Shown here: positions 1 to 19,277 of the stretch, piece after piece
Layout of the letters: the number at the start of each line of letters is the position of its first letter
Numbering within the stretch: position 1 is the first letter of the stretch
Assembly: GCA_020073105.1 (NCBI GenBank)
Contig: JAIQFW010000028.1
Location: 1 to 32,449, forward strand
DNA from: Terriglobia bacterium
GTDB lineage: Bacteria; Acidobacteriota; Terriglobia; Terriglobales; Acidobacteriaceae
DNA: 32,449 nucleotides
Direction of reading: 5' to 3'
Position numbers and translations under genes: made by a program
Notes under the pieces: model-generated
What the model saw: only the letters and a program-made list of their open reading frames with translations
What the model was told of the DNA's origin: nothing
Database searches by the model: none

Positions 1-617
1 GACCACGGACAGTTTCATAGAACCCAAGTTGCTCTAGTTTAAAGCATTCCCGGTGTGCGACCGACTTTTTCCGACGACTGCAGGCCATTCCCACGACGTG
101 TAATTAATTCCGGCAGGTCTCGCCAGATCGGGGAATTTTGACATAAGACACCGCACCGGGAAGGGCACGACCGGCTTTTGAGTCCCGGGGTCACTATCAA
201 GTTTGGTTCGTGGTGCCCGAGAATGGGCGTCCATGGCCGGAAGCGACGTTACGATGCACCACTGCCACCGTCCTTGCTAGTGCGTGTGGTGGGTCTCCAT
301 TCCACGCATTTCTATCGTGTTTTGTCGCAGTTAGCGCGACTTGTGAAGGGCGTGCGGCAGGACCTGCGCACCATCCGGCGACGGACCGGCCTGGGGGTCG
401 CCTCGAACGCCGAGGTCGCCGATCACCGTGAATCCAACCGTTCGAAATCCCTGAGGAAATCTTTCTCCCGTGGCAGCCGGAATGCATGCCATTCCAGAGA
501 AGACAGCCTGAAAATTTTTCTTTGTTCTTCCGCAAGGCTGTACGGCGAAGTTGTGTGCCAGGAATGACCACAAATTTCCTGGCCGACGTGCCTCAGTGAA
601 CAACCATAGAAGTTGCC
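1..617. other. Gene-free upstream region
   Basis: No convincing coding region is visible on either strand. Open frames here are short, overlap each other, and encode Arg/Ser-rich sequence with no recognisable motif. A short stem (GTCGC...GCGAC) lies near 324-340. The region probably contains the promoter for the HTH pair that starts at 618, but I see no pair of -35/-10 boxes good enough to call. Confidence 0.5.
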
Positions 618-1013
618 ATGAAGGAGAAGACTATCCGTCTGGGTCCCCGGGAACAGCAAATAGCTGATTTGCTGCTGCAAGGCTGTGACAACACGGAGAT
701 TGCGGCGCAGCTCAAGATGGCACGTCGCACGGTAAAGGCGCACTTCAACCGGCTTTTTCTGCGATTCGGCATCAGAAGCGGAATCAAACGAGTCAAGCTT
801 GCAACACTCTTATATCGGAGGCAGCTATGGCAGGAGGGCAGCGCTACGGAACCCGAATTCCCAGTGAAAGAGAAGCACGAGTTATTGCACTCGTCGCCCA
901 AGGACTCAAGAACAGCGAAGTCGCGGAAGTCATCGGCACGACCGAACATGTTGTCAAAAACTACCTCCGGGTCATCTACGACAAGCTTGGGCTCTGGAAT
1001 CGCGTCGAGTTAG
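618..1013 (+). CDS. Small LuxR/GerE-type HTH protein, type A (copy 1), with out-of-frame tail
   Basis: Residues 1-70 form a LuxR/GerE-type helix-turn-helix: the segment LGPREQQIADLLLQG, then NTEIAAQLKMARRTVKAHFN, ending in GIKRVKLATLLYRRQ. There is no receiver or ligand-binding domain, so the protein is essentially a bare DNA-binding domain. The type A protein at 7337 is a clear paralogue, sharing the LFLR.GI..G.KRVKLAT end. The ATG at 618 is preceded by a weak AGAAG. From 827 onward the frame runs through the next gene in another frame, and the last ~60 residues are Ser/Lys-rich with no counterpart in the paralogue, so the tail is probably a by-product of a lost stop codon. Expected role: transcriptional regulator, possibly acting with its type B partner. 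Target unknown. Confidence 0.8.
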   Translation: MKEKTIRLGPREQQIADLLLQGCDNTEIAAQLKMARRTVKAHFNRLFLRFGIRSGIKRVKLATLLYRRQLWQEGSATEPEFPVKEKHELLHSSPKDSRTAKSRKSSARPNMLSKTTSGSSTTSLGSGIASS

Positions 1014-1060
1014 CTCTGTGGTATGAAGCCCGCCGCCATGAAGGCTTAGTGCGCGCCTGA
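827..1060 (+). CDS. Small LuxR/GerE-type HTH protein, type B (copy 1)
   Basis: This 77-residue protein is almost entirely a LuxR-type HTH: SEREARVIALVAQGLKNSEV, then IGTTEHVVKNYLRVIYDKLG and WNRVELALWYEARRH. A strong Shine-Dalgarno, CGGAGG at 816-821, sits five bases before the ATG, so this start is well supported although it lies inside the upstream gene. Its frame is -1 relative to type A, the offset an ancestral ATGA overlap would give. The type B protein at 7558 is the paralogue, sharing IGTTE.VVKNYLR and DKLG.W.R.ELAL. With no sensory domain, it probably works as a partner of type A or under another protein. Target genes cannot be told from sequence. Confidence 0.85.
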   Translation: MAGGQRYGTRIPSEREARVIALVAQGLKNSEVAEVIGTTEHVVKNYLRVIYDKLGLWNRVELALWYEARRHEGLVRA

Positions 1061-1085
1061 GGCGGTTTCTGCCCCGTTCGGCGGC

Positions 1086-2774
1086 TCACCTGCAGTTTTC
1101 GCGTGCTGCCGGCTCAAACTGATCCAACTGTGCGTCGCGCTGAGCTTCAATCTTGCCGTCCGGAGTCTTGCCGTATAGTTCCGCGCCGGGGCAATAGTAA
1201 AGTGCGGTATGCACGTCCACCCATACCATCACGTTCGGGTTGCCCATGGTGACAGACGCGGGTGGCGCTTCCGCCAAACCAAGGCCGACTAACATACGCT
1301 CAAACAGGGTGAGCGTTGGCTGTGGGGGACTGTTGGGCCGATGTTTAACGGTGCGCGATCCCACTCCCGCGAGGGCCAAGAGCAGGATGAGAGCGGAGAC
1401 CGCAACCGAGATATCTCCGCGGTGTTTCCCCAGCCAAAGCCTGCCGGGCGAGTCCGTTTTCTCCAGGGACTTTAGCCACTTCAGAGTTCTGGTAGCGGAT
1501 GCCCAGGGCGCCGGTGTTGTAGGTTGAGGCTCTTTGGCGGGCGGAACGATCTCAGGTTTTACTTCCGGCTCGGGCGATTCTGCTTCTTTTGCCTCCTCCG
1601 CCGTCATCGGCCCGAATTCCTCGCGGTCGACTGCCAAAGCCGAACTGCCGTCCGTCTGCGGCACTTCGGCACGTGAAAACTGTGCTAGCACCTGCTCCAG
1701 CTCAGGTGGCAGGGGAGCATCGCTGATGGAATGCAGGTTGGTTGTGGAATTCTCTGCTGTCGGCCCCGGTTCTTCCGCTGGTTTGCCCGCCGGTTGCTCT
1801 AGGTCCTGTTCTGGGAAAGTCCATCCCTCCTCTCGCTCTGCGAGAGGCACCATCTCCATGGATCTTGGAGTGCCGCAGCGACCACAAAATAGTTCTCCCT
1901 CACCAAACCGATATCCGCACTGCGCGCAGGTAGAGATCGCGCTGGTTTTCTGGTCGGCATCGCCGATCGCGGACACGAGGGCTTCCAGTTCGGATGCAGG
2001 CGGCTGTTGCTGAATTACGGCTTCCTCAGGAGCCGGGCTGATCGCCTCGATCTCCGTCACCGGTTCCGCGGTGACTGTCTCGGTGGGCTCCGCTGCGAGG
2101 CGCTCGAGTTGTGGCCGGAGTCTTTCCAGAACCTCCAGCATGGTGGCTCGCTCCGTCGCCAGCGCATGCTTCCACTCCAAGCGAGCTTCCCGGGCAATCG
2201 CCTCACTCATCAAGCCGGCCATTACCTGGCAGCTCCCGATCTCGTGCTCCCGGATGGAAACACACTCTTCGAAGCGGAGATCGAGCAATCCCGCCACTTT
2301 TCCGTCATGGTACACAGGAAACAGTACGGGCGAGTTGCTCTCGCGGCTCTGGAGGAACTCGCTCGCCCGGCGGAGATCGGCTTTGTCCGTCTGCAGGAAG
2401 TTGGACAAACTCTCATCGATCGGTATGTTCAAACCCGCCAGAGCTGCGGCACTGCCAACGGCGGCACAATACTCCAGCCGGTCCTCCTTGATTACGGCGA
2501 TGGCAACTCCGCTTGCGTGGGTGATCTTTTGCAGTTGTTCCGCGATCAAACGCGCTGATGTTGGAACGTCGTACTGCTTGGAGTGAAGAACTTCCTGGGT
2601 CGCGGCAATCTCCGACAGCGTCTCCGCCGGATCAAGCTTGGGTCCGAAGACGGGCTCGATTTCGTCCTCGATCTCGTTCTGCTCCTGCAAGACGTAGGCG
2701 GCCTCGAGAATTTGCTGGAACGTAGTCTCGTCCAGGACCGGCATTGCTCGCGCACTTGCGGTCTGCGACTCCAT
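1086..2774 (-). CDS. GAF-like, zinc-ribbon, single-TM protein with C-terminal YYCPG motif
   Basis: The ATG at 2774 (562 residues) is preferred to a TTG at 2807 because AGGAGAAAG lies just upstream. Visible parts, in order: an acidic N-terminus; a GAF-like region at about 70-205; a coiled or charged stretch; a zinc ribbon with C283-x2-C286 and C297-x2-C300 (CAQCGYRF...FCGRCGTP); a long Pro/Glu-rich linker; one membrane segment at about 455-471 (ISVAVSALILLLALAGV); and a C-terminal domain with VWVDVHTALYYCPGAELYGK and a final Cys. That C-terminal pattern resembles small domains common in acidobacterial proteins (H/Y-CPG...YGKT...A...C). Substrate and function are unknown. A sensory or scaffold role in the cytoplasm with an exported tail is an inference. 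The gene converges on the HTH pair with a 25-base gap. Confidence 0.75.
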   Translation of the reverse strand: MESQTASARAMPVLDETTFQQILEAAYVLQEQNEIEDEIEPVFGPKLDPAETLSEIAATQEVLHSKQYDVPTSARLIAEQLQKITHASGVAIAVIKEDRLEYCAAVGSAAALAGLNIPIDESLSNFLQTDKADLRRASEFLQSRESNSPVLFPVYHDGKVAGLLDLRFEECVSIREHEIGSCQVMAGLMSEAIAREARLEWKHALATERATMLEVLERLRPQLERLAAEPTETVTAEPVTEIEAISPAPEEAVIQQQPPASELEALVSAIGDADQKTSAISTCAQCGYRFGEGELFCGRCGTPRSMEMVPLAEREEGWTFPEQDLEQPAGKPAEEPGPTAENSTTNLHSISDAPLPPELEQVLAQFSRAEVPQTDGSSALAVDREEFGPMTAEEAKEAESPEPEVKPEIVPPAKEPQPTTPAPWASATRTLKWLKSLEKTDSPGRLWLGKHRGDISVAVSALILLLALAGVGSRTVKHRPNSPPQPTLTLFERMLVGLGLAEAPPASVTMGNPNVMVWVDVHTALYYCPGAELYGKTPDGKIEAQRDAQLDQFEPAARENCR

Positions 2775-3403
2775 GTCAGCGGGCTTTCTCCTCGTTTCTC
2801 GTTTCAACGACTGGCTCCCCGGTGGAGTGCAATTGACTGTCCAAAACGCTGCGACTCGGCCCGCAAGCTCCTGATTCTAGCAGTGTTGGTCAAGCCAGAC
2901 CATGCCCTCGTGACACCCTTCAAGTCGTTATTCTTCTTGCAATTAGCGGTCGCTCCGCCCGATCTCATGCCAGCCAGCCGACCTGATGCATCCAGAGCCC
3001 CTGGCGCCACGGTAATCGTTACTCGAGCCGATGTTCACTGCACTGTGCAAAATATTGCACTTTCTCCGGGAAGGGAAGAGCCGGTTGACCCCTGACCTGC
3101 GAATCCGGAAATCAGAAAACAGCAAGGGCGTATTTGTTTCGTCACGGGAAAGCTGGCGTGAGATCTGTTCGGCCAGATTGACTTGAGCAGCGTGGTCTGC
3201 ATCTCGATCTAACGTTGACGTCGTGGAACACCAGCGGTGCTGCTGCGCGCCCGTAACTTTGAGAACGTCAGTGTGGCGGCGCACTTCGCTACTGCGAGTC
3301 TTGTTCCCGCCCGGTTCCCAGCGAAAAGGGATTTCCCAAGTTATCCTCAACCCACCCGAGGTACAATGGCGAGCACCGCCACTGACTCACCTGTAAAGAT
3401 CCC
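2775..3403. other. Divergent intergenic region
   Basis: This 629-base region separates two divergently transcribed zinc-ribbon membrane proteins. Open frames inside it look random and have no recognisable domain. It should hold promoters for both flanking genes. The only distinctive signal I see is a short inverted repeat at 3045-3060, listed separately. Confidence 0.45.
3045..3060. promoter_or_regulatory. Operator-like inverted repeat
   Basis: GTGCAA-AATA-TTGCAC is a perfect 6+6 inverted repeat around an AT-rich centre, located between two divergent genes. The geometry would suit a small HTH dimer, but the binder is unknown and chance occurrence cannot be excluded. Confidence 0.25.
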
Positions 3404-4078
3404 GTGTCAGCTCTCCCCCAAGACGACACCAGGGTGACATGTCTCTCGTGTCACTACAGTTACCCCAGCGTGCGCGGATTCTGTCCAATCTGCGGGGCGG
3501 CTTCGCCCACTGAGGAAGAGGCCCACAGCCTGCACGTGCTTCGTAGCCAGCCACGTGAAACTCGTCGCGAAACCGGCACAGTGGCCAGGAATGCGCTGCG
3601 CGCGGCCTTAGCCCCGCTACGGAAGAGGCCGGTCCCGATTGTTGTATCCGCCGCCATCGTGCTTTGTGGGTGGCTCTTCTTGCGAACCGGAGACCGGAGG
3701 ACATCATCGGTGACCGCTCCAGCAACCCGGCCAGCTGAAACGTCTCCCGCGCTTGCTCCGCTACCCGCCACCATTCCCGACAATACGGCCAAGCCGGTCG
3801 CACCCGCGCGCCGCGGACTTCGATCCGCCGCGCCTGCCGCGGGAGAAATTGTCGTGGAGGAATCGGTTGCCCCAGAAGACAGTCCGGTGGAGTTGTGGAA
3901 GCGTGTCAGACACGGAGACACGGACGCAGAAGTTGCTCTGGCCAAACTGTATCTCGATGGCACTCGCGTATCGCAAAACTGCGAACAAGCACACCTGCTT
4001 TTGTTGGCCGCATCAAAGAAGAGACACCAGGAAGCTGACCGCCTTCTTTCAGGTGACTACGCGCAACGTTGCCGGTAA
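3404..4078 (+). CDS. Zinc-ribbon, single-TM protein with Sel1-like C-terminus
   Basis: This 224-residue protein starts at GTG 3404; an in-frame GTG at 3434 is the alternative, and neither has a strong ribosome site. It has an N-terminal zinc ribbon with C13-x2-C16 and C27-x2-C30 (CLSCHYSY...FCPICGAA), a basic stretch, one membrane segment at about 77-93 (VPIVVSAAIVLCGWLFL), a Pro/Ala/Thr-rich linker and a C-terminal Sel1-like (TPR-related) repeat: DAEVALAKLYLDGT, then CEQAHLLLLAASKK. The N-terminus should be cytoplasmic with the repeat outside, probably for protein binding. The domain order resembles the divergent neighbour at 1086-2774 (zinc ribbon, membrane anchor, exported tail), which suggests related jobs. 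Exact function unknown. Confidence 0.75.
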   Translation: MSALPQDDTRVTCLSCHYSYPSVRGFCPICGAASPTEEEAHSLHVLRSQPRETRRETGTVARNALRAALAPLRKRPVPIVVSAAIVLCGWLFLRTGDRRTSSVTAPATRPAETSPALAPLPATIPDNTAKPVAPARRGLRSAAPAAGEIVVEESVAPEDSPVELWKRVRHGDTDAEVALAKLYLDGTRVSQNCEQAHLLLLAASKKRHQEADRLLSGDYAQRCR

Positions 4079-4300
4079 CCCACCCTTCCCAGGTTGTGTC
4101 ATTCATCTTCCCTTGTGGTGATCATCGCTGGCTGTCCGCTTCCGGACATCCAATCTCGCCTGCGGACACGCAAGGTGCTCACTTAGAGAACTCTCTTCCG
4201 TCAATTCAATGACTTGGCATTCCACGAAGAGGCAAGGGGGTTGCACCAGAAAACCGATTGTGGGGTGGCGTCTCGACCGGGGGAAAACAAGACCATGCCA

Positions 4301-6742
4301 ATGGAAGACGTTCGCTACGGACTGCGGATGCTGCGGAAGAACCCGGGTTTCACTGCGGTCGCGGTGCTGACCCTTGCTCTGGGGATTGGCGCGAACACAG
4401 CACTGTTCTCCGTGGTGAATGGGGTGCTGCTCGATCCGCTGCCATTTCCCCAGGCGGACCAACTCGTCACTCTCCACGAAAGCAAGCCGAATTTTGACCG
4501 TGGCTCGATCTCCTATCTCAACTTTCTCGATTGGCAAAAAGAGAACCACACATTCTCTGCCATGGTGATTTCCCGCGAGTACGCATTCAGCCTGACCGGC
4601 ACCGGCGAAGCCCAGCAAGTGAACAGCGAGTTTGTTTCCTCCGACTTCTTCTCCCTGCTCGGCGTAAGGCCGGTGATCGGACGCACCTTTGTGCCGGAGG
4701 ACGACCGAATCGGTGCCAGCCCGGTCGCGCTCATCAGTGCAGGTTTTTGGGGACGCAAGCTGGGTTCCACCCGTGATGTTTTGGGAAAGCCCCTCACGTT
4801 GGACGGGAAGAACTACACCATTGTCGGCGTGATTCCAGCGAGCTTTCATCTCCTCCTTCCCAGTTTCCGTGACAGTGACGTGTACGTTCCCATCGTTCAT
4901 TGGAACAATTCGCTACTGTTCTCGCGGGGGGCAGGCCTGGGAATCCATGGGATCGGGCGGCTGAAGCCCGGAGTGACGATCGAGCAAGCGCAGTCTGACA
5001 TGGACGCGGTGACGGGCGGCCTGGCGGCGGCCTATCCCGATGCCGACAAGGGCATTGGCGCCAAGCTCATTCCTCTGAAGCAGCAGATGGTCGGCAACGT
5101 CCGTCCATTTCTGTTGGTCCTGCTGACCGCGGTGGGTTTCGTCCTGTTGATCGCCTGTGTGAACGTTGCCAACCTGCTGCTGGCCCGCTCCACTGGGCGC
5201 AGTCGTGAATTTGCCATCCGTGTCTCGCTCGGCGCCAGCCAGGTGCGAGTGGTCCGACAGCTTCTGACCGAGAGTGTCCTGCTTGCCATTCTCGGTGGCG
5301 GGCTGGGCTTGCTTTTGGCGGCATGGGGAACGCAAGGCGCATTGGGAGTGCTGCCCACGACTTTGCCGCGCGCGGAGGAAATCCGACTCGACACCCACGT
5401 TCTCCTCTTCACGGTGGCGACTTCCTTGTTTGCAGGCATTCTCTTCGGACTGGCGCCGGCGCTCAAGGTCTCCCGGAGCGACTTGCAGCAAACTCTCAAG
5501 GAGGGAGGCCGGGGAGTCAGTGGGGGACACCACCGCGTGCAGGGGGCCTTTGTGGTGGTCGAGGTGGCACTGGCGCTGGTGTTGCTGGCCGGTGCGGGCC
5601 TGATGATTCGCAGCTTGGCGCGGCTGTGGAGTGTCGATCCGGGATTCAATCCGGATCGCGTCCTGAGCTTCGGGATCTCACTTCCACCTTCGATGATGGC
5701 GGCCTCTCCCGATGCGGTTCGTTCCGCCTTTCGCGAGTTGGACAGCAGGCTGGCCTCGATACCCGGCGTCACCGCAGTGTCGCAGACCTGGGGGGCAGTT
5801 CCCATGAGCGGGGATGACGAGCAATTGTTCTGGATCGAGGGCCAGCCGAAACCCGCGAGCGAGAACGACATGAACTGGGCCATCGACTATATCGTCGAAC
5901 CGGATTATCTGAAGGTGATGGGAATTCCATTGCAGCGTGGACGGTTCTTTATGCCTGAGGACAACGAGCATGCGCCACGAACGATAGTGATTGACGATGT
6001 CTTTGCCCGTAAGTACTTCGGCGACGAAGATCCCGTTGGCAAGCGCATCAACGTGAACAACGCGAGTGGGACGGCGGAAATCATCGGCGTCGTCGGGCAT
6101 GTGAAGCAGTGGGGCCTGGATGTGGACGATACCCACTCTCTGCGGGCGCAACTTTATCTCTCGTGCATGCAGATGCCGGACAAGTTCATCGGGATGGCGC
6201 CCTCGGGTTCGGCGGTGGTCATCCGCTCGGACGGAGCGAATCCCACACTCCTCGCGTCGATTCGCCGTACCAGCCAGCAGATGAGCAGCGAACAGGTCAT
6301 ATTTGGCGCGCAAACCATGAATGAGATCATCTCCGACTCGCTCGCCAGGCGGCGCTTCTCCATGATTTTGCTTGGAGTGTTTGCCGGGCTGGCGCTGTTG
6401 CTGGCGGCCATCGGAATCTACGGTGTGATTTCCTATGTCGTGGGGCAGCGGACGCACGAGATCGGGGTGCGCGTAGCGCTGGGCGCACAGCGCCGCGATA
6501 TCGTGCAACTTATTCTCGCCGGTGGCGGAAAACTTGCAGCGGTCGGCATCGCCGCGGGACTGGTCGCAGCCTTTGGCCTGACCCGGCTGATGGCCGGTCT
6601 GCTGTACGGAGTTGCTGCGACAGATCCAGTAACCTTTGCCGCCGTGGCTGTGCTTCTGGGCCTGGTGGCACTGGCCGCTTGCACCATCCCGGCGCGGCGG
6701 GCGACGAAGGTCGATCCCATGGTAGCGCTGAGGTACGAATAG
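4301..6742 (+). CDS. ADOP-family orphan ABC permease (MacB/FtsX type)
   Basis: The start is taken at ATG 4301 (MEDVRYGLRMLRKNPGFT); ATG 4295 is equally possible, and the open frame runs back to 4214 without family-like sequence. The protein is about 813 residues, matching acidobacterial duplicated orphan permeases. The order is: TM1 with the LTLALGIGANTALFSV signature; a MacB-type periplasmic core; an FtsX unit with three TMs (FLLVLLTAVGFVLLIACVN; LAILGGGLGLLLAAW; LFAGILFGLAPAL); a second TM1-like segment after HHRVQGAFVVVEVALAL; a second periplasmic core; and a second FtsX unit ending PARRATKVDPMVALRYE. No ATPase gene is adjacent, as is usual for this family. Transported substrate or mechanical role unknown. 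A truncated paralogue follows 13 bases downstream. Confidence 0.92.
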   Translation: MEDVRYGLRMLRKNPGFTAVAVLTLALGIGANTALFSVVNGVLLDPLPFPQADQLVTLHESKPNFDRGSISYLNFLDWQKENHTFSAMVISREYAFSLTGTGEAQQVNSEFVSSDFFSLLGVRPVIGRTFVPEDDRIGASPVALISAGFWGRKLGSTRDVLGKPLTLDGKNYTIVGVIPASFHLLLPSFRDSDVYVPIVHWNNSLLFSRGAGLGIHGIGRLKPGVTIEQAQSDMDAVTGGLAAAYPDADKGIGAKLIPLKQQMVGNVRPFLLVLLTAVGFVLLIACVNVANLLLARSTGRSREFAIRVSLGASQVRVVRQLLTESVLLAILGGGLGLLLAAWGTQGALGVLPTTLPRAEEIRLDTHVLLFTVATSLFAGILFGLAPALKVSRSDLQQTLKEGGRGVSGGHHRVQGAFVVVEVALALVLLAGAGLMIRSLARLWSVDPGFNPDRVLSFGISLPPSMMAASPDAVRSAFRELDSRLASIPGVTAVSQTWGAVPMSGDDEQLFWIEGQPKPASENDMNWAIDYIVEPDYLKVMGIPLQRGRFFMPEDNEHAPRTIVIDDVFARKYFGDEDPVGKRINVNNASGTAEIIGVVGHVKQWGLDVDDTHSLRAQLYLSCMQMPDKFIGMAPSGSAVVIRSDGANPTLLASIRRTSQQMSSEQVIFGAQTMNEIISDSLARRRFSMILLGVFAGLALLLAAIGIYGVISYVVGQRTHEIGVRVALGAQRRDIVQLILAGGGKLAAVGIAAGLVAAFGLTRLMAGLLYGVAATDPVTFAAVAVLLGLVALAACTIPARRATKVDPMVALRYE

Positions 6743-6755
6743 AGCTGAGGTAACG

Positions 6756-7109
6756 ATGGAAACCTTGCTGCAGGACTTTCGTTTCGGCCTTCGCATGCTG
6801 TGCAAGAACCCCGGCTTCACCGCCGCGGCCGTGCTCACCTTGGCGCTTGGCGGACGCTCACGGGACATCACATGTTTGGTCGTCGGTCAGGCTATCCGGC
6901 TCACGTTTGCGGGGCTGGCCACGGGTTACCTCGCCGCGTGGATGCTCACCGGTTTCTTGTCCAGTATGCTGTACGGGGTGGGCGCGAACGATCCGCTGAC
7001 CTTCGCCGGGGTTTCCACCTTGTTAGGCTTCGTAGCGCTGATCGCAGGGTATGTGCCAGCGCGCCGGGCCACCAAAATAGACCCTATGGTGGCGCTGCGT
7101 TACGAGTAA
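6756..7109 (+). pseudogene. ADOP permease minigene with large in-frame internal deletion
   Basis: The 117-residue frame starts like an ADOP permease (METLLQDFRFGLRMLCKNPG, then FTAAAVLTLALG) and passes directly into the C-terminal part (GRSRDIT...), ending in the family tail PARRATKIDPMVALRYE. About 700 central codons, covering both periplasmic cores and the first FtsX unit, are missing relative to the gene just upstream. The join falls at an Ala-Leu-Gly triplet (6843-6851) that intact ADOPs encode both in TM1 (LTLALG) and before the last FtsX unit (RVALGAQRRD), so recombination at short homology is the simplest explanation. The frame is kept and two C-terminal TMs remain. It is most likely a decaying remnant, although a small membrane protein could still be made. 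Confidence 0.8.
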
Positions 7110-7336
7110 CACCGAGAACGGTGGATGGCCGAACAGGCCCGTCTTGGGAAGGCTTTCTCCCATTTCCGGCTCTCCCAATCTCCTCACCCGACCCCCGTCA
7201 ATCGCCCCACCCGACGATTTCCAAGGTTTCAAAGGTCTTTAGCTCTTCGCACGCGATGGCGAAGCTTTGGCGAACTACGTGCTTTGCTGTCAAGCGCGAA
7301 AGCCGGCCGAGACATCTGGGCCGGAAGGAGCACGAA

Positions 7337-7579
7337 ATGGTAAATCTCACAGACATCAAGATTACCCAGCGCGACGAGCAGGTCCTGAACTTGTTGGTAC
7401 AGGGATGCAGCAATAAGGAAATCGCCGAAGAGTTAAACATCAGCCCGCGGACAGTGAAGCAGCATCTGCGCACTCTATTTCTGCGGGCAGGAATCACCAA
7501 CGGGCGCAAGCGCGTCAAACTCGCAACCGCGATGTACCAGAAGGAGCAGAGGGAAGTATGCAACCAAGTGATCGGTTAA
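7337..7579 (+). CDS. Small LuxR/GerE-type HTH protein, type A (copy 2)
   Basis: This 80-residue HTH protein starts at ATG 7337 with a good Shine-Dalgarno (AAGGAG, 7325-7330). The frame is open far upstream, but nothing there resembles the family. The HTH core is TQRDEQVLNLLVQGCSNKEI, then NISPRTVKQHLRTLFLRAGI and GRKRVKLATAMYQKEQ. It is a paralogue of the protein at 618 but ends normally, overlapping the type B gene by only 22 bases. It lacks any sensor domain. The receiver-only protein at 8326, 0.5 kb downstream, is a possible but unproven partner. Confidence 0.85.
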   Translation: MVNLTDIKITQRDEQVLNLLVQGCSNKEIAEELNISPRTVKQHLRTLFLRAGITNGRKRVKLATAMYQKEQREVCNQVIG

Positions 7580-7791
7580 CCGGGAAGGAAGTGCAAGTGG
7601 CCTCCCTGGTCTGGGAGGGCCTTACCAATCGCGAGATTGCGATGGTCATTGGCACGACTGAACAGGTGGTGAAGAACTACCTGCGCAACACCTTCGACAA
7701 GCTTGGGGTGTGGAGCCGGTTGGAACTCGCGCTCTACGTGGCGAACCACGGCGGCCCCCGGTGGCGCGAGCCAAATGGCGTGCTGCCTTAA
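7558..7791 (+). CDS. Small LuxR/GerE-type HTH protein, type B (copy 2)
   Basis: This 77-residue LuxR-type HTH protein contains LTGKEVQVASLVWEGLTNRE, IGTTEQVVKNYLRNTFDKLG and WSRLELALYVANH. It overlaps the type A gene by 22 bases in the -1 frame, which implies translational coupling; purine-rich GAGGGAAGT precedes the ATG. It is closely similar to the type B protein at 827, so the A+B pair is a duplicated unit. It probably binds DNA as a homodimer or as an A/B heterodimer. Targets unknown. Confidence 0.85.
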   Translation: MQPSDRLTGKEVQVASLVWEGLTNREIAMVIGTTEQVVKNYLRNTFDKLGVWSRLELALYVANHGGPRWREPNGVLP

Positions 7792-8325
7792 CCTTGGCAG
7801 TCCGGCAATGTGTGCCGAAATGAAGTCGCGAGGATTTCGAGGGCTGGTCCTCCGGTCGCACATGGCATCAATGACTCGGGGTCAGAGCGGGGTACGCCCG
7901 ACGAAGGGGCTCGCCGGAAGGGATTTCGCCCAAGTTTTTCACAATTGGGCAATGGGATCATGTCGGCCGGGCGATTGACGATCACTCATGGGTTCTTACG
8001 TAATCACAAAATGTGTAGCCCAGCAAAGTCCGCATCTGTGGCTTGCACTGGTCCTAGGGCAGCGGCCTGTGGACGGCAGGCAAGTGCTAGAAAAATCGAA
8101 TTCTTTCCTGCCCAGGAAAAGATTGACTGCAGACTCGTCGTGAAGTACACAGCCCGAAGCCTGCCCATGGATCAGCGGTTGGTGGCAGGATGCGCCGATA
8201 CACCGTCTCGCCGGGTGGTTCAGGCAGTTCCAGATGTGGGGGAAATCCGTTTGTTGCTTGGAAAGCGCGCAAGGCAGCCGGTCGTGACTTGAGTGATCAT
8301 CGGCAGAATAAATCACTGGCCGCCT
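7792..8325. other. Gene-free region
   Basis: About 530 bases lie between the second HTH pair and the receiver gene. A plus-strand open frame at 7810-8292 has no family-like content and reads as chance sequence. Apart from one possible promoter (8123-8151) I see no clear signal. Confidence 0.4.
8123..8151 (+). promoter_or_regulatory. Possible sigma70-like promoter upstream of receiver gene
   Basis: TTGACT (8123-8128) is followed after 17 bases by TACACA (8146-8151). The -35 box is good (5/6) and the -10 box poor (3/6). It lies about 175 bases before the receiver gene. Low confidence. Confidence 0.22.
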
Positions 8326-8790
8326 ATGGCACCTGCATTCAACCGAACTACGACTACCGTTCTCGTAGTCGAGGATTCTCCAGAAACGCAGCGCTACCTT
8401 CGAGTCCTGCTCCAACTCGACGGCTACCAGGTCGACACAGTTGGCAGTGGCGAGGAGGCACTGCAGCATGTGCGCGACGGCTCCGCCGCAACGGTCGTGC
8501 TGCTTGACGTGCAAATGCCGGGCATCGATGGGATCGAAACTCTACGCATCTTGCGCGAGCTTCGGCCGGACCTGAAGGTCATCATGTGCTCCGGCGTGGA
8601 TAATCCGGACACCATCCGGGAAGCCATCTTGCTAGGTGCTCACGCTTACCTCGTCAAGCCCATCCAGCATCTCTATCTGTCAGCGGCTGTGGAGCGCTGT
8701 CTGGGCCTGGGCTTGACGACCCATGTCGGTGGACCATTAGGAGCGCGGGTTGTGGCTTGGCCAGCGCCGCACCTTTCTCGTCCCAATTGA
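8326..8790 (+). CDS. Stand-alone response-regulator receiver protein
   Basis: This is a CheY-like receiver domain of about 154 residues from ATG 8326; an in-frame GTG at 8293 would add 11 residues. The conserved site is complete: acidic pair E16-D17 (VVEDSPE), phospho-acceptor D61 (LLDVQMPG), S89 (MCSGVDN) and K111 (YLVKPI). After the domain there is only a short tail, with no output domain, so it must act by protein contact or as a phosphate relay. No histidine kinase is nearby. Its nearest upstream genes are the HTH-only pair, so one guess is that receiver and DNA-binding functions are split among separate proteins here. Confidence 0.88.
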   Translation: MAPAFNRTTTTVLVVEDSPETQRYLRVLLQLDGYQVDTVGSGEEALQHVRDGSAATVVLLDVQMPGIDGIETLRILRELRPDLKVIMCSGVDNPDTIREAILLGAHAYLVKPIQHLYLSAAVERCLGLGLTTHVGGPLGARVVAWPAPHLSRPN

Positions 8791-9464: not shown

Positions 9465-9749
9465 TCTGACCAGATCCTGCGACGGCTAGGTTACACCTTG
9501 GGCGACGTGATTCTAATTCAAACCGTGAGGTTACTAAAGTGGCGTATGAGCCACCTCACGGGAAGGAAGTAGCTACAAGACGGAAAAACCTTGCAAAAGG
9601 TTGCACGCGGCCCTCTGTTCTGTAGGCAAAGTGTACTCTTAAAACCAAGTACTTGACTGCCAGGTTACGGTATGCGAATTGCTCAAAGCAGGAGGGCGCC
9701 GGAGATCGCAGTCCGTCTCCAGGGGATCCGGGCTTTCCAGGTAACACGA

Positions 9750-10157
9750 ATGAATCACAAAGAAACCTTCTGGATGGCGTGCGACTCGACCGAGCAGTTG
9801 CGGGCGGAGTACGGACCCTTTCAGACCCGCGCCGAGGCCGAGGCCGAGGCCCGCAAACTTGGTTTCGGTTACCTTTTGCGCTACGAGCACCTGATCGATG
9901 GCAATGAAGACATCCAAGAGGTGCGTTGCGTCTTCATTGAGCTGCCAGGGGCCATTGAGCGCAAGCGACCGGCACTGAGACTCCACACCCGCTGCGCCAC
10001 TTGTGGGGAGACGGAAGTGCACGAGGAATCTTGGCGGGCTGAAGTCTGGGCGGACATTCACGAATTCGAGCACGCCCGGCATCGAGTTCGCTTGTTTGAG
10101 CAGACCCGCAGCGATGGATTGAAGGAAATTGAAGACTGGCGAGACCAGTGCGCCTGA
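9750..10157 (+). CDS. Conserved-looking small protein of unknown function
   Basis: This 135-residue acidic protein starts at ATG 9750 (MNHKETFWMACDS); the frame is open to 9672 but the added residues look random. It has an Ala/Glu-rich helix (FQTRAEAEAEARKLGFGYLL), one CxxC (RCATCGET) near the middle and a His/Glu-rich C-terminal half. It has no signal peptide or TM. I do not recognise a family. It starts 285 bases from the divergent PilZ gene and is followed by a small membrane protein. Confidence 0.55.
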   Translation: MNHKETFWMACDSTEQLRAEYGPFQTRAEAEAEARKLGFGYLLRYEHLIDGNEDIQEVRCVFIELPGAIERKRPALRLHTRCATCGETEVHEESWRAEVWADIHEFEHARHRVRLFEQTRSDGLKEIEDWRDQCA

Positions 10158-11730: not shown

Positions 11731-11800
11731 CCTCAGCGGCTGAAGCCGTCATTCAACCCAAGCCATTTTCGCAGCGCTGGAAGCGCTGCGCCACCTAAAA
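11731..11800. repeat. Two-hairpin intergenic repeat, copy A (possible bidirectional terminator)
   Basis: First hairpin: CGGC-TGAA-GCCG (11737-11748). Second hairpin: perfect 8-bp stem GCAGCGCT/AGCGCTGC with a GGA loop (11771-11789). A CCACCTAAAAA tail follows. The repeat lies between the convergent cyclase and pgl genes and touches the last codons of pgl, so it could end transcription from both sides. It has the same plan as 12574-12646 and 15177-15242. Confidence 0.7.
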
Positions 11801-12553
11801 ACCCTCCCTTTCGGTGGACAACTGAGCCGCCGCCCGGTCCACCATCCAAATCAATCTGCCGTCCGCTGGACGCACTCGCTGCGACGGTAAGTTGGCACTC
11901 TGGTTTTCCAAAACCTCGCGGAGAATAGCGGCTTTGTCGGGCCCGCAGGCCAAAAAGATGACGCAAGCTGCATGGTTCAGGACCGGCAACGTCAAGGTAA
12001 TGCGGTAAGTCTTAAAATTCTCCACCCAGTTCGCTACTACCAGTCGGTTGTTCTCGTTGAGCGCAGAGGTCCCGGGAAACAGGGAAGCGGTGTGCCCGTC
12101 CGGTCCCAGCCCGAGCAGGACCAGATCAAAGCGCGGAAACTTGCCGGGTTGCAGCTTGAAGAACGTGCGCAGAGTTTGCTCGTAATCGCGGGCAGCCGTT
12201 TCTGCATCGTGCTCGGCGTGAATGCGAAAGACGTTCGGCTCCGGTACCTTCCAAAGCAGAGCTTCTTTGGCCATGCGGTAGTTGCTGTCGGAGTGGTCGG
12301 GAGGCACGTTGCGCTCGTCGCCGAACAAAAAGTAGGTCTTGTCCCAGGGAAGATTCGAAAATGCGTTGCTGGCCAGCAATTGATAGAAGTTCCTGGGCGT
12401 GGAACCGCCGGAGAGGGCGACACAAAACCTGCCACGGCTTTGGACCGCGGCGCTCGCCAGTGCGGCGAACTCGGTGGCAGCAGCGGCGAAAAGATCAGCG
12501 GGCGTATCGAAAATGCGAAGTTCGGGTTGAGAGGGCATGGGCGGTTGTTTCAT
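11795..12553 (-). CDS. pgl: 6-phosphogluconolactonase
   Basis: This enzyme hydrolyses 6-phosphogluconolactone to 6-phosphogluconate, step two of the oxidative pentose phosphate pathway, in the cytosol. The 252 residues are normal for the DevB/SOL family. Diagnostic motifs are VALSGGSTPRNFYQLL at about 45-60 and DLVLLGLGPDGHTASLFPGT near the middle, plus a LFGDERNVPPDHSDSN segment. The start may be the first ATG (12553) or the Met six codons in; neither has a clear ribosome site. It is the last gene of the seven-gene minus-strand sugar-phosphate cluster and is separated from glk by a two-hairpin repeat, which might uncouple or stabilise its part of the message. Confidence 0.95.
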   Translation of the reverse strand: MKQPPMPSQPELRIFDTPADLFAAAATEFAALASAAVQSRGRFCVALSGGSTPRNFYQLLASNAFSNLPWDKTYFLFGDERNVPPDHSDSNYRMAKEALLWKVPEPNVFRIHAEHDAETAARDYEQTLRTFFKLQPGKFPRFDLVLLGLGPDGHTASLFPGTSALNENNRLVVANWVENFKTYRITLTLPVLNHAACVIFLACGPDKAAILREVLENQSANLPSQRVRPADGRLIWMVDRAAAQLSTEREGF

Positions 12554-12573
12554 CCATGGATTCGGAGTTTAAA

Positions 12574-12646
12574 GACCTCGGGCGCTAAAGCGCGTGACTG
12601 AAATTGGGAGTCCGATTTGCAGCAATGAAGCGCTGCTCCCCCTAAA
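12574..12646. repeat. Two-hairpin intergenic repeat, copy B
   Basis: First hairpin: GCGC-TAAA-GCGC (12582-12593). Second hairpin is degenerate: GCAGC (12619-12623) pairing with GCTGC (12632-12636) around an ATGAAG-containing loop. A CTCCCCCTAAAA tail follows. It occupies the glk-pgl gap inside the cluster. Its order, spacing and tail match copies A and C. Confidence 0.6.
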
Positions 12647-12649
12647 AGC

Positions 12650-13636
12650 TTAGGACCCCGCGCCCTTCGCCACCGCGCAGCGCGCCGCTCCCATCAGCGC
12701 GGTCTTGTCATTGGTGATGACTTTGACGGGCATGGCTTCAAGCAGGCGCTGCATGCGGCCCTTGCCAGCAAAAGCCTGCATGAACAATGGCCCTGCCAGC
12801 TTGGGGAGCATCTTGGGAGCGATGCCGCCGCCTAGGTACACGCCGCCGGTGGCCATCAGTTTGAGCGCGAGATTGCCGGCCTCGGCCGCATAAACAGATA
12901 TAAAGAGATCCAGAGCGCGTTCTGAGAGCGGGCATTTGCCGTCGAGAGCAGCACGCGAGATGGCGGCCGCCGGGTCGCCATGCAACATTTCTTCACTGAG
13001 CCACTTCGGTTCTTTCCCGTGTCCGGTGTCGCGCAAGAAGTGGAATACGTTCACCAGCCCGGGTCCGGACACAACTCGCTCCCAGCTGACGTGGCCGTAG
13101 TGAGCGGTCAGATAACGTAGGAGGTCGATTTCCAGGTCGTTGCGGGGAGCGAAATCTGAGTGACCGCCCTCGCATGCAAAGATGTGGTGCTTCTCTCCGT
13201 CCCAGTACATGCCGGCTTCGCCCAGCCCGGTTCCGGCAGCGATCACCGCCTGGTTGCCCACCGGATTTCCCTTCACCTGGTTCAAGCAGACCACATCGCT
13301 GGGAGCCAGAGTGGCTATTCCCCAAGCGTTGGCTTCGAGGTCATTGATGAGCAGGGCCCGTTGGATGTGGAGTTCATCCGCAAGGCGTGTGGATTCCACG
13401 ATCCACGGCAGGTTGGAGGCTTCCACTCGACCGCCGCGTACCGGGCCAGCCACGCCAAAACAGGCGGCGTCCGGGCGGACTGAGGAACTCTCGACAAACT
13501 TGCTCACGATCTCATCGAGACCGGAGTATTCGCGGCTGGGAAAGACTGACGCCGAAACTAGACGGAAGGTGCCGTTCGTGGCTTCGAATAGTGCCAGCCG
13601 CGCGTTTGTACCCCCAATGTCGCCGGCCAGGATCAT
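12650..13636 (-). CDS. glk: Glucokinase
   Basis: This enzyme phosphorylates glucose to glucose-6-phosphate with ATP in the cytosol. The 328 residues fit the bacterial Glk (PF02685-type) family. Motifs: phosphate-binding [14 protein letters not shown] at 4-17, [11 protein letters not shown], the glycine loop [13 protein letters not shown], and substrate-site [12 protein letters not shown]. The ATG at 13636 overlaps the zwf stop by four bases (ATGA), so the two are probably translationally coupled; GGAGGAAC precedes the start inside zwf. The gene therefore feeds substrate directly to the dehydrogenase encoded upstream. Confidence 0.96.
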
Positions 13637-15165
13637 TTCTCGAAGTTCCTCCAGCGGCGGCCGTCGCGCTCCAGCAACTCATCAGCTTCCTTTGGTCCCC
13701 ACGTGCCCGCGGCATAGTTAGGAAAATTTCGCGGCGGCAGCGCTTTCCAGACATCCAGAGCAGGACTCACCACGCACCATCCTGCCTCGACCATATCGGC
13801 GCGCTGAAACAACGTGGCGTCGCCGATCATGCAGTCGTGCAACAAGCGCTCGTACCCGGTACTCGGCCGGGTTCCGAAGTAGTCGGCATACTCGAAATTC
13901 ATGTCCACGGCACCCAGACGCATGGCCGGCCCTGGCACTTTCGCGGCGAAGCGCAGGGAAATGCCTTCTTCCGGCTGAATATGCAGGACGAGTTGGTTCG
14001 GCATCAGGTTTTCTACCGGCGTGTCACGGAACAGTACGAACGGAGCGCGCCGAAATTGGATCACGATATGGGTGTTGTGGCCGGGCATCCGCTTTCCCGT
14101 GCGGAGGTAGAAAGGCACATCCGCCCAGCGCCAATTGTCGATCTGCAACTTCATGGCGACGAAGGTTTCGGTGCGGGAGTCCGGGGGAACACTGTCCTCG
14201 GAACGGTAAGCCGGCACACGTTGCCCGCCGCTGAGGCCTTCGCCGTACTGGCCGCGCACCGTCTTGCTCAGCACCTCCTCAGAGCTCAACGGCTGGATGG
14301 CATGCAAGATCTTGGCCTGCTCGTCGCGCACGGCGTCGGCCCGGAACGAGACCGGAGGCTCCATCGCGGTCAGGCTGATGAGTTGCATGATGTGGTTGGG
14401 CACCATGTCCCGCAGCGCGCCGGCCTGGTCGTAGTAACTGCCGCGACTCTCCACGCCCACAGTTTCCGCCACGGAGATTTGCACGTGGTCAATATAGCGG
14501 CGGTTCCAGATGGGTTCGAAAATCCCGTTGGCAAAGCGCAGCGCCAAAATGTTCTGTACCGTCTCTTTGCCGAGATAGTGATCGATGCGGTAAATCTGGT
14601 TCTCTCGAGCCACTTGCAACAATTGCTGGTTGAGCGCCTTGGCAGACTCCAGGTCGTGACCGAAGGGCTTCTCCACGATGACCCGCCGCCAACGATCGTC
14701 TTCCTCCATTAAGCCAACCGCCGCGAGTTGTTCGACGATGGGCGCAGAGAAGTCGGCCCCGGTGGCTAAATAGTAAAAATGGTTGCCGTGGGTGGAGTGG
14801 TCTTTGTCTGCGGTGTCCAGCAGGTCCTTCAGCTTGGGATAAAGGTTCTTGTCCCCGAAGTTGCCCGGCAGGTAATACATGCGCCGCGTGAACCACTCCC
14901 ACAAATCGGTATCGACCGGTTCAGTGGCAAACTGCTTGATGTCCTGCGACATTCTGTTGCGGAAGTCTTCGGTGGAGATGGCGGCGCGGGCAACACCCAC
15001 AATTGCGAACTCGCGCGACAATAACTGCGACTTGGCCAGGTTGTACAGTGCGGGGACCAGCTTGCGCCGGGTCAGATCTCCGGCGGCTCCGAAGATCACC
15101 ATCGCGCAGGGATCGCCGAGCTTCCCGACAATTTGCGTTGTGGGCATCACTTCTGTCTGAGCCAT
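13633..15165 (-). CDS. zwf: Glucose-6-phosphate 1-dehydrogenase
   Basis: This enzyme oxidises glucose-6-phosphate to 6-phosphogluconolactone with reduction of NADP(H) or NAD(H). I start it at ATG 15165 (510 residues); a GTG at 15177 lies just inside the upstream repeat. The dinucleotide site [12 protein letters not shown] is near residue 25, [11 protein letters not shown] near 165, and the substrate/catalytic signature RIDHYLGKE at 193-201, with the family's essential His and Lys present. Length is normal. It overlaps glk by four bases. It is separated from gnd by a two-hairpin repeat. Confidence 0.97.
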
Positions 15166-15176
15166 GGGTTTCCGCA

Positions 15177-15242
15177 CCTCAGGGGCTGAAGCCCCTCACT
15201 CATCGAGCTCTTAATTGCAGGGCCGAAGGCCCTGCTCCACCT
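15177..15242. repeat. Two-hairpin intergenic repeat, copy C
   Basis: First hairpin: AGGGGC-TGAA-GCCCCT (15181-15196). Second hairpin: 8-bp stem GCAGGGCC/GGCCCTGC with a GAA loop (15217-15235), then CTCCACCT. Stem bases differ from copy A but are compensated, so structure is conserved over sequence. It sits between gnd and zwf, next to the alternative zwf GTG start. Confidence 0.7.
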
Positions 15243-15273
15243 TTGGCGCTGCAAATCACCAGCGCGAGTATGT

Positions 15274-16269
15274 CTAAGCCGTCTTTTTCGCCGATTTGGC
15301 CGGTTCCACATGCCCGCCAAATTTCTGCCGCATCGCCGACAACACTTTCTCTGCAAAGGTGTGTTCCTGGCGGGAACGGAAGCGGGTGAAGAGCGCGGCG
15401 GAAAGTACATCCACGGGAACCGCCTCGTCGATCGCCGCCTGGATCGTCCAGCGCCCCTCCCCGGAATCCTGAACGAAACCGGTGTACTCGGAGAGGGTCG
15501 GGTTCTCAGCCAGTGCCATGGCCGTCAGGTCCAATAGCCACGAACTGACGACGCTGCCCCGGCGCCAGACCTCCGCGATGTCAGCCAGGTTCAAATCGTA
15601 ACGTTGATTGTCGGGGAGCTCCTTGCTGCCGGCATTGCGAAAGATGTCGAAGCCTTCTGCGTACGCCTGCATGAGGCCGTATTCAATGCCGTTGTGCACC
15701 ATCTTGACGAAGTGTCCCGACCCCGACGGGCCGCAGTATATGTAGCCCTCTTCGGCGGTGCCGGGCATCTTTTCGCGGCCGGGGGTTCGAGGGATGTCGC
15801 CGCGGCCCGGGGCCAACGTCTTGAAGATGGGATCGAGTTGCTGTACTGCTTCCTTAGGACCGCCGATCATCATGCAGTAGCCGCGCTCCAGGCCCCACAC
15901 ACCGCCACTGGTGCCCACGTCTACGTAGTGAATGCCTTTGTTCCGGAGTTGCTCGGAGCGGCGAATATCGTCTTTGAAATAGGAATTGCCGCCATCGATG
16001 AGAATGTCGCCGGGCAGCATGCGCTGCGCCAGATTCTGCACCGTTTGTTCGGTAGGAGCGCCGGCTGGCACCATCAGCCAGGCGACTCGCGGCTTCCCCA
16101 GCTTGCTGACGAAATCGTCCAGCGACGATGAAGCGATGGCGCCTTCCCCGGCGATCTGCTTCACGTTGTCAGCACTGAGATCGGTGACCACGACTTCGTG
16201 TCCACCCCGCATCAGGCGGCGCGTCATGTTCGCGCCCATGCGGCCCAATCCCACCATCCCCAGTCTCAT
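15274..16269 (-). CDS. gnd: 6-phosphogluconate dehydrogenase, decarboxylating (short class)
   Basis: This enzyme converts 6-phosphogluconate to ribulose-5-phosphate and CO2. ATG 16269 is chosen because AAGGAG ends six bases before it; the in-frame GTG at 16275 would touch that site. The 331 residues mark it as the short (YqeC/GndA-like) class rather than the ~470-residue enzyme. Motifs: Rossmann [43 protein letters not shown], and [19 protein letters not shown] with the catalytic Lys. The C-terminus ends in a Lys/Ala-rich tail. Short-class enzymes are often NAD-preferring, but cofactor choice cannot be settled here. Confidence 0.95.
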
Positions 16270-16354
16270 ACCCACTCCTTATGCCATATTAAATCGTTTT
16301 TGTAGAATCCCCGAGGAAATAACCGCGGACGACACCAAGGACCAGCAGGGAAAA

Positions 16355-18088: not shown

Positions 18089-19245
18089 TTGGTTTTCGCG
18101 TTTCTCTCTACCGCCTTGAGGAGCTTCTCAAAAGCTTCAGCGAAGAGGCGGACTCCGTCCTCGGTGAGCTTGTCGGTAACTTCCTTCATCGAGATGCCCA
18201 GCTTGGCGGCGGTCTGCATAACACGATCTGCGGACTCCAGATCTTCCGTCAAGCTCGCCCGTGGGTGTCCGTGATCACGGAAGGCATCAAACGTTGCCGG
18301 GGGGATGGTGTTCACCGTGTCCGGCCCGATTAATTCGTCTACGTACATCACGTCGCTGTAGCTCGGGTTCTTGGTGCTGGTGCTTGCCCACAGGACGCGC
18401 TGGGTTTGCGCTCCTTTCGCCGCCAGCTTGTTCCAGCGGTCGCCGCTGAAGAGTCTCAGATACTTCTGATAGGTCTGCTTACCGTTGGCAATTGCCACTT
18501 TACCCTGAACACTCTGAAGGTCGGCCTTTTCGCGGTCGCTGGTTGCAGCCTTCAAGCGGGTTGCCACGATGGCGTCGACCGAAGAGTCAATCCGGCTGAT
18601 GAAGAAGCTGGCGACACTGCCGATCCTGGCAACATCTCCACCCTTGGCCGCCAGCTGCTCGAGGCCGGCAACATATGCCTCCGCCACCCGCTCATACACC
18701 TCTTGCGCGAACAGCAGAGTCACGTTGATGTTGATGCCCTCGCTGATGAGTTGCTGAAAAGCGGGAATTCCCTCTGTCGTGCCCGGAACCTTCACCATCA
18801 GGTTCTCGCGGCCCACCGCCTTCCACAGGCGGCGTGCCTCTTGCAGCGTGGCCTCTGTATCGCGCGCAAGAAAGGGTGAGACCTCGAGGCTGACGTAGCC
18901 GTCACGACGCTTGGTGCTTTGGTAGACCGGCCGAAGAGCATCGGCGGCTTGCTGAATGTCTTGAATGGCGATGATCTCATAGCGGCCGTTGGCATCAAGA
19001 TCGGGCCTTGATTCCAGGGAGCGTAGGGCGTCCGTATAGTACTGGCTATCGGCGATCGCCTTCTCAAAAATCGCAGGATTGGAGGTCATGCCGCGCAGGC
19101 CGTCTTCCTCGATCAGGCGTTTGAGCTCGCCGGTGGTGAACAAATCGCGGCGGATGTAATCCAGCCAGACGGACTGACCAAACTTGAGGAGATCCTTAAG
19201 GGGGTTAATTGATTTTGCGGTTTCCAGAACTCCAGTCGGCTGCAT
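18085..19245 (-). CDS. tal: Transaldolase
   Basis: This enzyme transfers a dihydroxyacetone unit between sedoheptulose-7-phosphate and glyceraldehyde-3-phosphate. The 386 residues fit the long TalB-related subclass found in actinobacteria, cyanobacteria and acidobacteria. Motifs: GLRGMTSNPAIFEKAI at about 49-64, DGYVSLEVSPFLARDT at 115-130, and Schiff-base Lys152 in NLMVKVPGTTEG. GAGGTG lies five bases before the ATG. It starts 32 bases after tkt and overlaps pgi by four bases, so tkt-tal-pgi is likely one transcript. Confidence 0.95.
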   Translation of the reverse strand: MQPTGVLETAKSINPLKDLLKFGQSVWLDYIRRDLFTTGELKRLIEEDGLRGMTSNPAIFEKAIADSQYYTDALRSLESRPDLDANGRYEIIAIQDIQQAADALRPVYQSTKRRDGYVSLEVSPFLARDTEATLQEARRLWKAVGRENLMVKVPGTTEGIPAFQQLISEGININVTLLFAQEVYERVAEAYVAGLEQLAAKGGDVARIGSVASFFISRIDSSVDAIVATRLKAATSDREKADLQSVQGKVAIANGKQTYQKYLRLFSGDRWNKLAAKGAQTQRVLWASTSTKNPSYSDVMYVDELIGPDTVNTIPPATFDAFRDHGHPRASLTEDLESADRVMQTAAKLGISMKEVTDKLTEDGVRLFAEAFEKLLKAVERNAKTK

Positions 19246-19277
19246 TAAACACCTCGCTATAAATTGGTCTCGCCGAA

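Follow-up and report, generated by a model that had tools for sequence, protein, structure and literature searches.

Paired receiver-less LuxR-type proteins of Terriglobales: a probable A:B transcription factor with sigma-54-type promoters and a subunit gene apparently nested in that of its partner

Why would a bacterium encode, twice on the same contig, two small DNA-binding proteins of one family in overlapping reading frames? The question is raised by contig JAIQFW010000028.1 of a Terriglobia bacterium (GCA_020073105.1; Acidobacteriota, Terriglobales, Acidobacteriaceae), which in its full length of 32,449 nucleotides (nt) forms the window analyzed here and is one of the 308 contigs of its genome. 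An original prediction, made from the sequence alone, held that two loci each encode a bare LuxR-type helix-turn-helix (HTH) protein of type A followed by one of type B, that the pair was duplicated as a unit, and that A and B form an obligate heterodimer or a split regulator, possibly with a nearby receiver-only protein as sensor arm. The four predicted open reading frames (ORFs) were all recovered:

618–1013, forward strand: A1, bare NarL/GerE-type HTH protein, domain at about 618–830 (ORF; Pfam GerE, 42.4 bits; relatives)
827–1060, forward strand: B1, bare NarL/GerE-type HTH protein in the -1 frame relative to A1 (ORF; Pfam GerE, 42.6 bits)
7337–7579, forward strand: A2, bare NarL/GerE-type HTH protein (Pfam GerE, 54.7 bits; start codon common to relatives)
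7558–7791, forward strand: B2, bare NarL/GerE-type HTH protein in the -1 frame, overlapping A2 by 22 nt (Pfam GerE, 46.9 bits)

The reading that we favor as a whole, with a probability of roughly 60%, is that A and B make up a receiver-less A:B factor, that the pairs are sigma-54-driven operons, that a GAF-domain protein modulates the factor, and that B1 is nested in the gene of A1, where it overprints a C-terminal tail.

All four proteins match PF00196 (GerE) above its gathering score of 23.5 bits. General HTH and sigma-region-4 models are weaker matches beside GerE in each of them; in A2 the sigma-region-4 and other general HTH models also exceed their cut-offs, at lower scores. No receiver domain was detected by Pfam on A1, B1, A2, or B2, the Response_reg model matching only a separate protein at 8293–8790, nor was an autoinducer-binding domain found in these proteins of 77–131 residues (Pfam, E 0.001). 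When the A1 profile and the B profile were compared with the PDB, the nearest solved chains by sequence were NarL DNA-binding domains (8u3b, 1je8). A and B thus share the GerE-type DNA-binding domain of the NarL/FixJ response regulators, which differ in carrying their receiver on the same chain. A bare HTH of about 74–80 residues, as in A and B, is also found in GerE (PDB 1fse, 74 residues) and PedR (NCBIfam model, 74 positions). However, A and B are far from PedR, scoring 28–39 bits against a cut-off of 120, and GerE and PedR are not known to occur as pairs of two types.

That A and B are distinct types can be seen from their identities: 51% between A1 and A2 and 60% between B1 and B2, compared to 31–37% between A and B. 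The proposal that the pair was duplicated as a unit is borne out by a tree of joined A and B sequences, in which A1B1 parts from A2B2 with 100% support in the Shimodaira–Hasegawa-like approximate likelihood ratio test. This tree kept 61 of 99 rows (38 were thinned), six of them A2B2, and was built by a quick method that left 28 of its 58 inner branches weak. Judged from its spread, the duplication is old, since 84 of the 109 genomes with A1 or A2 have both (99 with A1, 94 with A2; among the matches listed in the family search, 106 A1 and 100 A2 rows). On 50 occasions the listed A1 and A2 rows share a contig, with 1.8–24 kb between them. Of 398 genomes sampled within the family, 116 contain a match to the A1 profile, counting A2 hits and a few weak matches. 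A sample of 396 genomes across the phylum gave four such genomes, the window's own among them, all belonging to Terriglobales. The 80 named relatives are mostly labeled Acidobacteriaceae, Acidobacteria, Terriglobales/Terriglobia, or Candidatus Sulfotelmatobacter (Acidobacteriota, Terriglobia, Terriglobales).

The pairing of A with B is nearly strict in both directions. Scoring covered 152 A genes (98 A1 and 54 A2) from the fetched Terriglobales loci, each distinct in its domain DNA, and a B gene lies directly downstream of 145 of them. The other seven comprise three at contig ends and four A1-like extra copies; a fifth lone A copy (L259) and a further pair (L260) stand outside this count. Conversely, an A gene lies 100–400 nt upstream in 149 of the best 150 B rows listed from a family-wide search with the B profile (E up to 2.4e-34), and the one row that lacks it begins at base 70 of a contig. 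The opposite pattern, A and B occurring mostly alone in relatives, had been named in the original prediction as evidence against it; it was looked for, and the near-strict pairing in both directions speaks against it. One of the lone copies is a third A1-like gene in the window's own genome (L076, G000:C218:3112-3318), behind which an apparent truncated B remnant can be seen by eye in the -1 frame; upstream of it there is no TGG-N9-TGC site of the kind described below. Degenerate copies were also encountered in genome G009, namely an A2B2 copy at L065 12055-12530 with a degenerate B2 C-terminus and a further A2 piece, broken across frames, at a contig end (L064 2-198).

How A and B are joined on the DNA differs between the two loci. 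The overlap in the window amounts to 187 nt for A1-B1 and 22 nt for A2-B2, with B in the -1 frame both times. The claim that B always occupies this frame stands for both window pairs and for 94 of 94 A1-B1 pairs, but only for 45 of 51 A2-B2 pairs, the remaining 6 being in the +1 frame. A programmed -1 frameshift fusing A to B was rejected because of these six pairs.

Do A and B act together in one molecule? In 4 of the 45 genomes of one genus (g7), six in-frame A-B fusions with a linker of about 16 residues are found. A seventh, broken fusion is present in another genome of the genus, and seven more of the 45 match by the B half only. The four fusion-carrying genomes each have a normal A2 as well. 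Helix 4, which is the dimer helix in NarL and GerE, distinguishes the two types further: among 144 A sequences, residue x of KRVxLA is K (130), R (12), or I (2), whereas 141 of 144 B sequences have E at the corresponding position (three B unassigned). NarL, like B and unlike A, carries E here (RVEAA in the alignment). The K/R-versus-E difference would fit A:B pairing and be less favorable for A:A. Because of the six fusions and this difference in helix 4, an A:B heterodimer is likely. The original prediction had gone further in calling the heterodimer obligate: heterodimerization is favored by the pairing, the fusions, and helix 4, but its obligate nature is unproven, since there are five extra A copies that lack a complete B partner.

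A notable feature of the first locus is the position of B1; the original prediction saw it overlapping A1 in the window, and its apparent full nesting came to light in relatives. Two elements in the window are relevant here:

817–821, forward strand: GGAGG ribosome-binding site of B1, inside the A1 codons for Y-R-R-Q (sequence; similar in relatives)
827–1013, forward strand: stretch open both as A1 tail and as B1, interpreted as what is left of a longer overlap that relatives retain

In the 72 pairs listed, B1 starts 203–212 nt after A1, GGAG(G/A) is nearly always present in the Y-R-R-Q codons of A1, and the A1 frame continues for at least 46 nt beyond the B1 start. For 93 distinct A1-B1 pairs (one of 94 was dropped for an unclear B1 start) it was scored whether the A1 frame runs past the end of B1. 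It does in 23 pairs, termed open here, and is broken in 70, mostly at 67 or 82 nt. Twenty-two of the open pairs span 18 genera; the 23rd, L240 (3.8 kb), is labeled Blastocatellia and is perhaps mis-binned. In the A frame at or after the B1 end, the motif W[ED]xx[ILVM][LM]xL is found in 22 of the 23 open pairs and in none of the 70 broken ones, and it is found 0 times in both other frames. The motif was written from 22 of the open sequences; its true test is the count of 0/70 in broken pairs together with its absence from the other frames. Mismatch within the motif by A-codon position (0.41/0.28/0.60) is as for coding DNA.

Signs of selection are also present within the overlap itself. When B1 is recoded synonymously with the codon usage of the window, the A frame stays open in a mean of 3% of cases (0.4–10%), and in 4% with the B1 usage of the broken set. 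Divergence at fourfold sites of B1 is 0.494 in the open group versus 0.646 and 0.601 in the broken groups with 82- and 67-nt overlap, groups that are not equal in mean protein distance; in the A1 domain the corresponding values are 0.614, 0.529, and 0.656 (22 of the 23 open sequences usable; pairs below 8% protein distance left out). The fourfold sites of B1 are C/G in 58%/12% in the open group, compared to 37/37 and 32/46 in the broken groups, 31/29 in the A1 domain of the open set, and 35/39 in B2 of four open loci. A C at such a site makes the A codon one for Ser, Thr, Pro, or Ala, and the A1 tail consists of 37% S+T+P. An AlphaFold2 model of a long A1 (L191, 18 sequences) shows an HTH modeled with confidence and a disordered tail, in which a helix of low confidence spans residues 152–158, on the motif. 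Given the open frame in 23 of 93 pairs, the motif in 22/23 versus 0/70, and the constrained synonymous sites of B1, B1 appears to be nested and dual-coded inside a long A1 in these 23 pairs. Both frames are open and under selection there, in relatives; the window's own early-stopping A1 is not among them and ends at the TAG at 1011–1013, without the C-terminal motif. On the tree the open state needs seven changes, and the window's clade is broken and adjoins an open sequence. The overprinted tail is read as old and lost several times, in the window's genome included; repeated gain is the alternative history.

What drives expression of the pairs? A model-free search of the upstream regions for k-mers gave the words TGTGGAAA and TTCGCCAA, which led to sigma-54 elements. 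The -24/-12 element recognized by sigma-54 has the consensus GG-N10-GC, and the corresponding TGG-N9-TGC pattern is found at three places in the window, listed here together with the third gene concerned:

471–485, forward strand: sigma-54-type promoter TGG-N9-TGC (GG-N10-GC) of A1B1 (pattern in relatives and window site)
7268–7282, forward strand: sigma-54-type promoter TGG-N9-TGC of A2B2 (pattern in relatives and window site)
2829–2843, reverse strand: sigma-54-type promoter TGG-N9-TGC of the GAF/zinc-ribbon gene (pattern in relatives, window included)
1086–2807, reverse strand: GAF/zinc-ribbon gene, the probable partner, with GAF domain, zinc ribbon, membrane-type helix, and a conserved C-terminus of about 50 residues (neighborhood, co-occurrence, model, and Foldseek)

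The pattern lies within 300 nt upstream of 90 of 92 A1 and 49 of 50 A2 genes, one pair of each kind having been dropped for less than 300 nt of upstream DNA. The controls for A1 and A2 gave 3–12 and 0–5 at other spacings, 5 and 4 on the antisense strand, and 9.6 and 3.5 in shuffles, and the pattern occurs in 14% of random 300-nt windows from the same loci. For the GAF/zinc-ribbon gene, 22 of 37 loci had it in the 400 nt upstream, compared to 0–12 at other spacings (39 loci chosen of 57; two with less than 400 nt upstream dropped); a first look within 300 nt had given 19/28. Within 1 kb downstream of B2 there was no sigma-54 enrichment (14/49; other spacings 6–37). The window's genome encodes one sigma-54 (RpoN). 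The ATPase domain of enhancer-binding proteins gave 25 matches in the genome, some of them fragments and the weakest unspecific, as the model also matches in all 14 control genomes.

Several smaller elements surround these promoters. A direct repeat TGGCGAA-N4-TGGCGAA with an 11-bp period (window 7257–7274) overlaps the A2 promoter and occurs likewise in L073, L167, and L238; a partial first copy (GAA or GCGAA) is kept in many other loci. Upstream of the A1 sigma-54 site, many loci carry a conserved CTGTGGAAAT...GTCACAG element (e.g., L188, at about -131), an inverted repeat by eye and perhaps the site of the enhancer-binding protein. Exact inverted repeats in the upstream regions were common to at most 7–8 sequences. 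TGTGGAA is present in 52 of 92 A1 upstream regions and absent from that of the window.

In 60 of 76 loci, the 2.5 kb downstream of A1B1 include a relative of the 1086–2807 gene; 27 of 36 loci have one upstream of A2B2. Across 61 genomes, this gene and A are each present in 14: both in 13, either one alone in a single genome each, and neither in 46 (Fisher's exact test, 2.9e-11, kinship ignored). The GAF-positive genome without A is G025. The A-positive genome without a GAF-gene match is G013, in which weak pieces lie beside A1B1. The model of the protein has a mean predicted local distance difference test (pLDDT) score of 70 and is matched by GAF domains of solved proteins (Foldseek, 6.5e-9); a zinc-ribbon cysteine pattern and then a membrane-type helix follow the GAF part. 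Pfam GAF and zinc-ribbon models match below their cut-offs only. Its co-occurrence and position suggest that this protein probably modulates A:B.

Taken together, these observations point to the following mechanism. A and B would be the subunits of a NarL-type transcription factor whose DNA-binding form is the A:B heterodimer. Each pair forms a single operon; as the sequence shows, a Shine-Dalgarno element of B's own lies inside the end of A. As A and B lack a receiver domain, the activity of the factor would probably be set by supply rather than by phosphorylation. Since both operons and the GAF/zinc-ribbon gene between them carry conserved sigma-54-type promoters, an enhancer-binding protein would switch on all three. 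The GAF/zinc-ribbon protein would probably modulate A:B. The C-terminus of A1 would be a Ser/Thr/Pro-rich linker whose selection is supported by the sequence and whose translation is presumed, ending in a short LExWExxILxL-like segment that may contact a partner; the window's genome has lost this tail. We consider it rather probable that, in about 18 genera of one family, subunit B1 is encoded wholly out of frame within A1, that the tail is a selected, disordered linker with a conserved partner-binding helix at its end, and that the pair, its old duplicate, and the GAF/zinc-ribbon partner constitute a sigma-54 module without a receiver.

An alternative is that A and B each form an ordinary homodimeric HTH regulator and share an operon solely for matched expression, with the overlap as routine translational coupling. 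GerE-type proteins work as homodimers and are among the nearest solved relatives, most A2-B2 overlaps are of 4–22 nt as in normal coupling, and lone extra A copies exist. However, the near-strict pairing in both directions, the six natural fusions, and the K/R of A at a position occupied by E in B and NarL are harder to explain in this way, so that we regard two homodimers as possible but rather doubtful. The original suggestion that the receiver-only protein at 8293–8790 is the sensor arm of the pair is the least probable alternative of all. Although this protein does have a receiver domain and in the window begins 0.5 kb downstream of B2, a similar gene was found within 2.5 kb downstream of A2B2 in just 5 of 20 loci, and it was rejected as a regular partner.

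For the nested gene, two further explanations were weighed. The long A1 frame could be a neutral accident of GC-rich DNA with an unselected tail. It is broken in 70 of 93 pairs, so the tail must be dispensable in many lineages, the window's included. On the other hand, openness by chance is expected at only about 3% per gene, the amino acids of the motif are kept while third codon positions vary most, and neither the A1 domain of these genes nor B2 of the four open-A1 loci shows the fourfold C bias. A neutral origin is improbable on these grounds. Somewhat less probable still, the conserved end peptide might belong to B1, with ribosomes shifting +1 at the B1 stop: the peptide does lie in the +1 frame of B1, and many B1 genes of the open set end in GCC TGA or a similar context. 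Yet the peptide is confined to pairs whose A1 frame stays open through all of B1 (22/23 versus 0/70), the overlap shows a constraint on fourfold sites of B1 that shifting at the stop would not require, and some B1 stops are TAA or TAG.

The reading as a nested, sigma-54-driven A:B system also has evidence weighing against it. The sequences are related by descent, so that counts overstate independence, and Fisher's test ignores this kinship. The A1 frame is broken in most pairs (70/93), and the 22/23 for the motif is partly by construction, because the motif was defined on the open set. The open pair L062 lacks it, keeping WE and not the rest, which leaves 17 genera. The C-terminal segment of A1 is modeled at low confidence (pLDDT about 53). 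The fourfold groups differ in mean protein distance (0.13, 0.09, and 0.24), which makes the comparison of open with 82-nt pairs the cleaner one. There are five extra A copies without a full B, one of them with an apparent B remnant. Furthermore, 10 of the 12 fused and lone copies examined have no TGG-N9-TGC pattern, and the two that do (L254, L256) have it in an odd place. Finally, 3 of the 14 GAF-positive genomes (G004, G011, and G025) match the GAF protein weakly, by its C-terminal 55–75 residues only (E 1.6e-11 to 2.1e-7).

How does the proposed system compare to known ones? LuxR-type heterodimers are described as rare in bacteria, the known cases being BldM-WhiI, which uses a non-palindromic site, and RcsB with RcsA, BglJ, or GadE (PMC4125116). 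A and B differ from these in being bare HTHs that are encoded in one overlapping operon and are sometimes fused. In BldM-WhiI and the RcsB heterodimers, the genes of the two partners lie apart, and their products exceed a bare HTH in size. Genes that are fully embedded out of frame in another gene are reported from both Archaea and Bacteria (PMC8665328). B1 in A1 is alike, one gene lying inside another in an alternate frame, yet B1 is homologous to the domain of its host gene, with which it also shares an operon, and what is overprinted is a C-terminal tail whose end motif is common to 17 genera. The present case would combine a LuxR-type heterodimer with an embedded gene and add sigma-54 control. 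A literature search by title and start of abstract, which covered few subscription papers, returned none on these genes, on an acidobacterial RpoN regulon, or on a nested LuxR gene.

Bacterial genes that are fully nested out of frame and show signs of selection in both frames are, in our judgment, unusual. Here the nesting recurs across many genera, and A2B2, as an old duplicate without nesting, provides a natural control. Together with the lineages that lost the tail, this makes the gain or loss of dual coding directly accessible to study. The A-B fusions are naturally occurring single-chain forms of what may be an HTH heterodimer. A further point of interest is a regulatory module driven by sigma-54 in the acidobacteria, a soil phylum that has received little study.

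Other genes of the window deserve brief mention. Between the two pairs also lies a duplicated permease of the ADOP family (TIGR03434, 981 bits) followed by a truncated permease fragment at 6756–7109 (4214–7109 as a whole); an ADOP-family permease is near A2B2 in only 2 of 36 loci. The protein encoded at 9672–10157 has no Pfam match above cut-off and is kept downstream of A2B2 in 16 of 20 loci. Further on, at 11795–21359, lies a sugar-phosphate cluster with 6-phosphogluconolactonase, glucokinase, glucose-6-phosphate dehydrogenase (G6PDH), 6-phosphogluconate dehydrogenase (6PGDH), phosphoglucose isomerase (PGI), transaldolase, and transketolase, which is partly kept behind A2B2 in relatives. A phage-type integrase (Pfam PF00589) is encoded on the reverse strand at the contig end (31479–32429).

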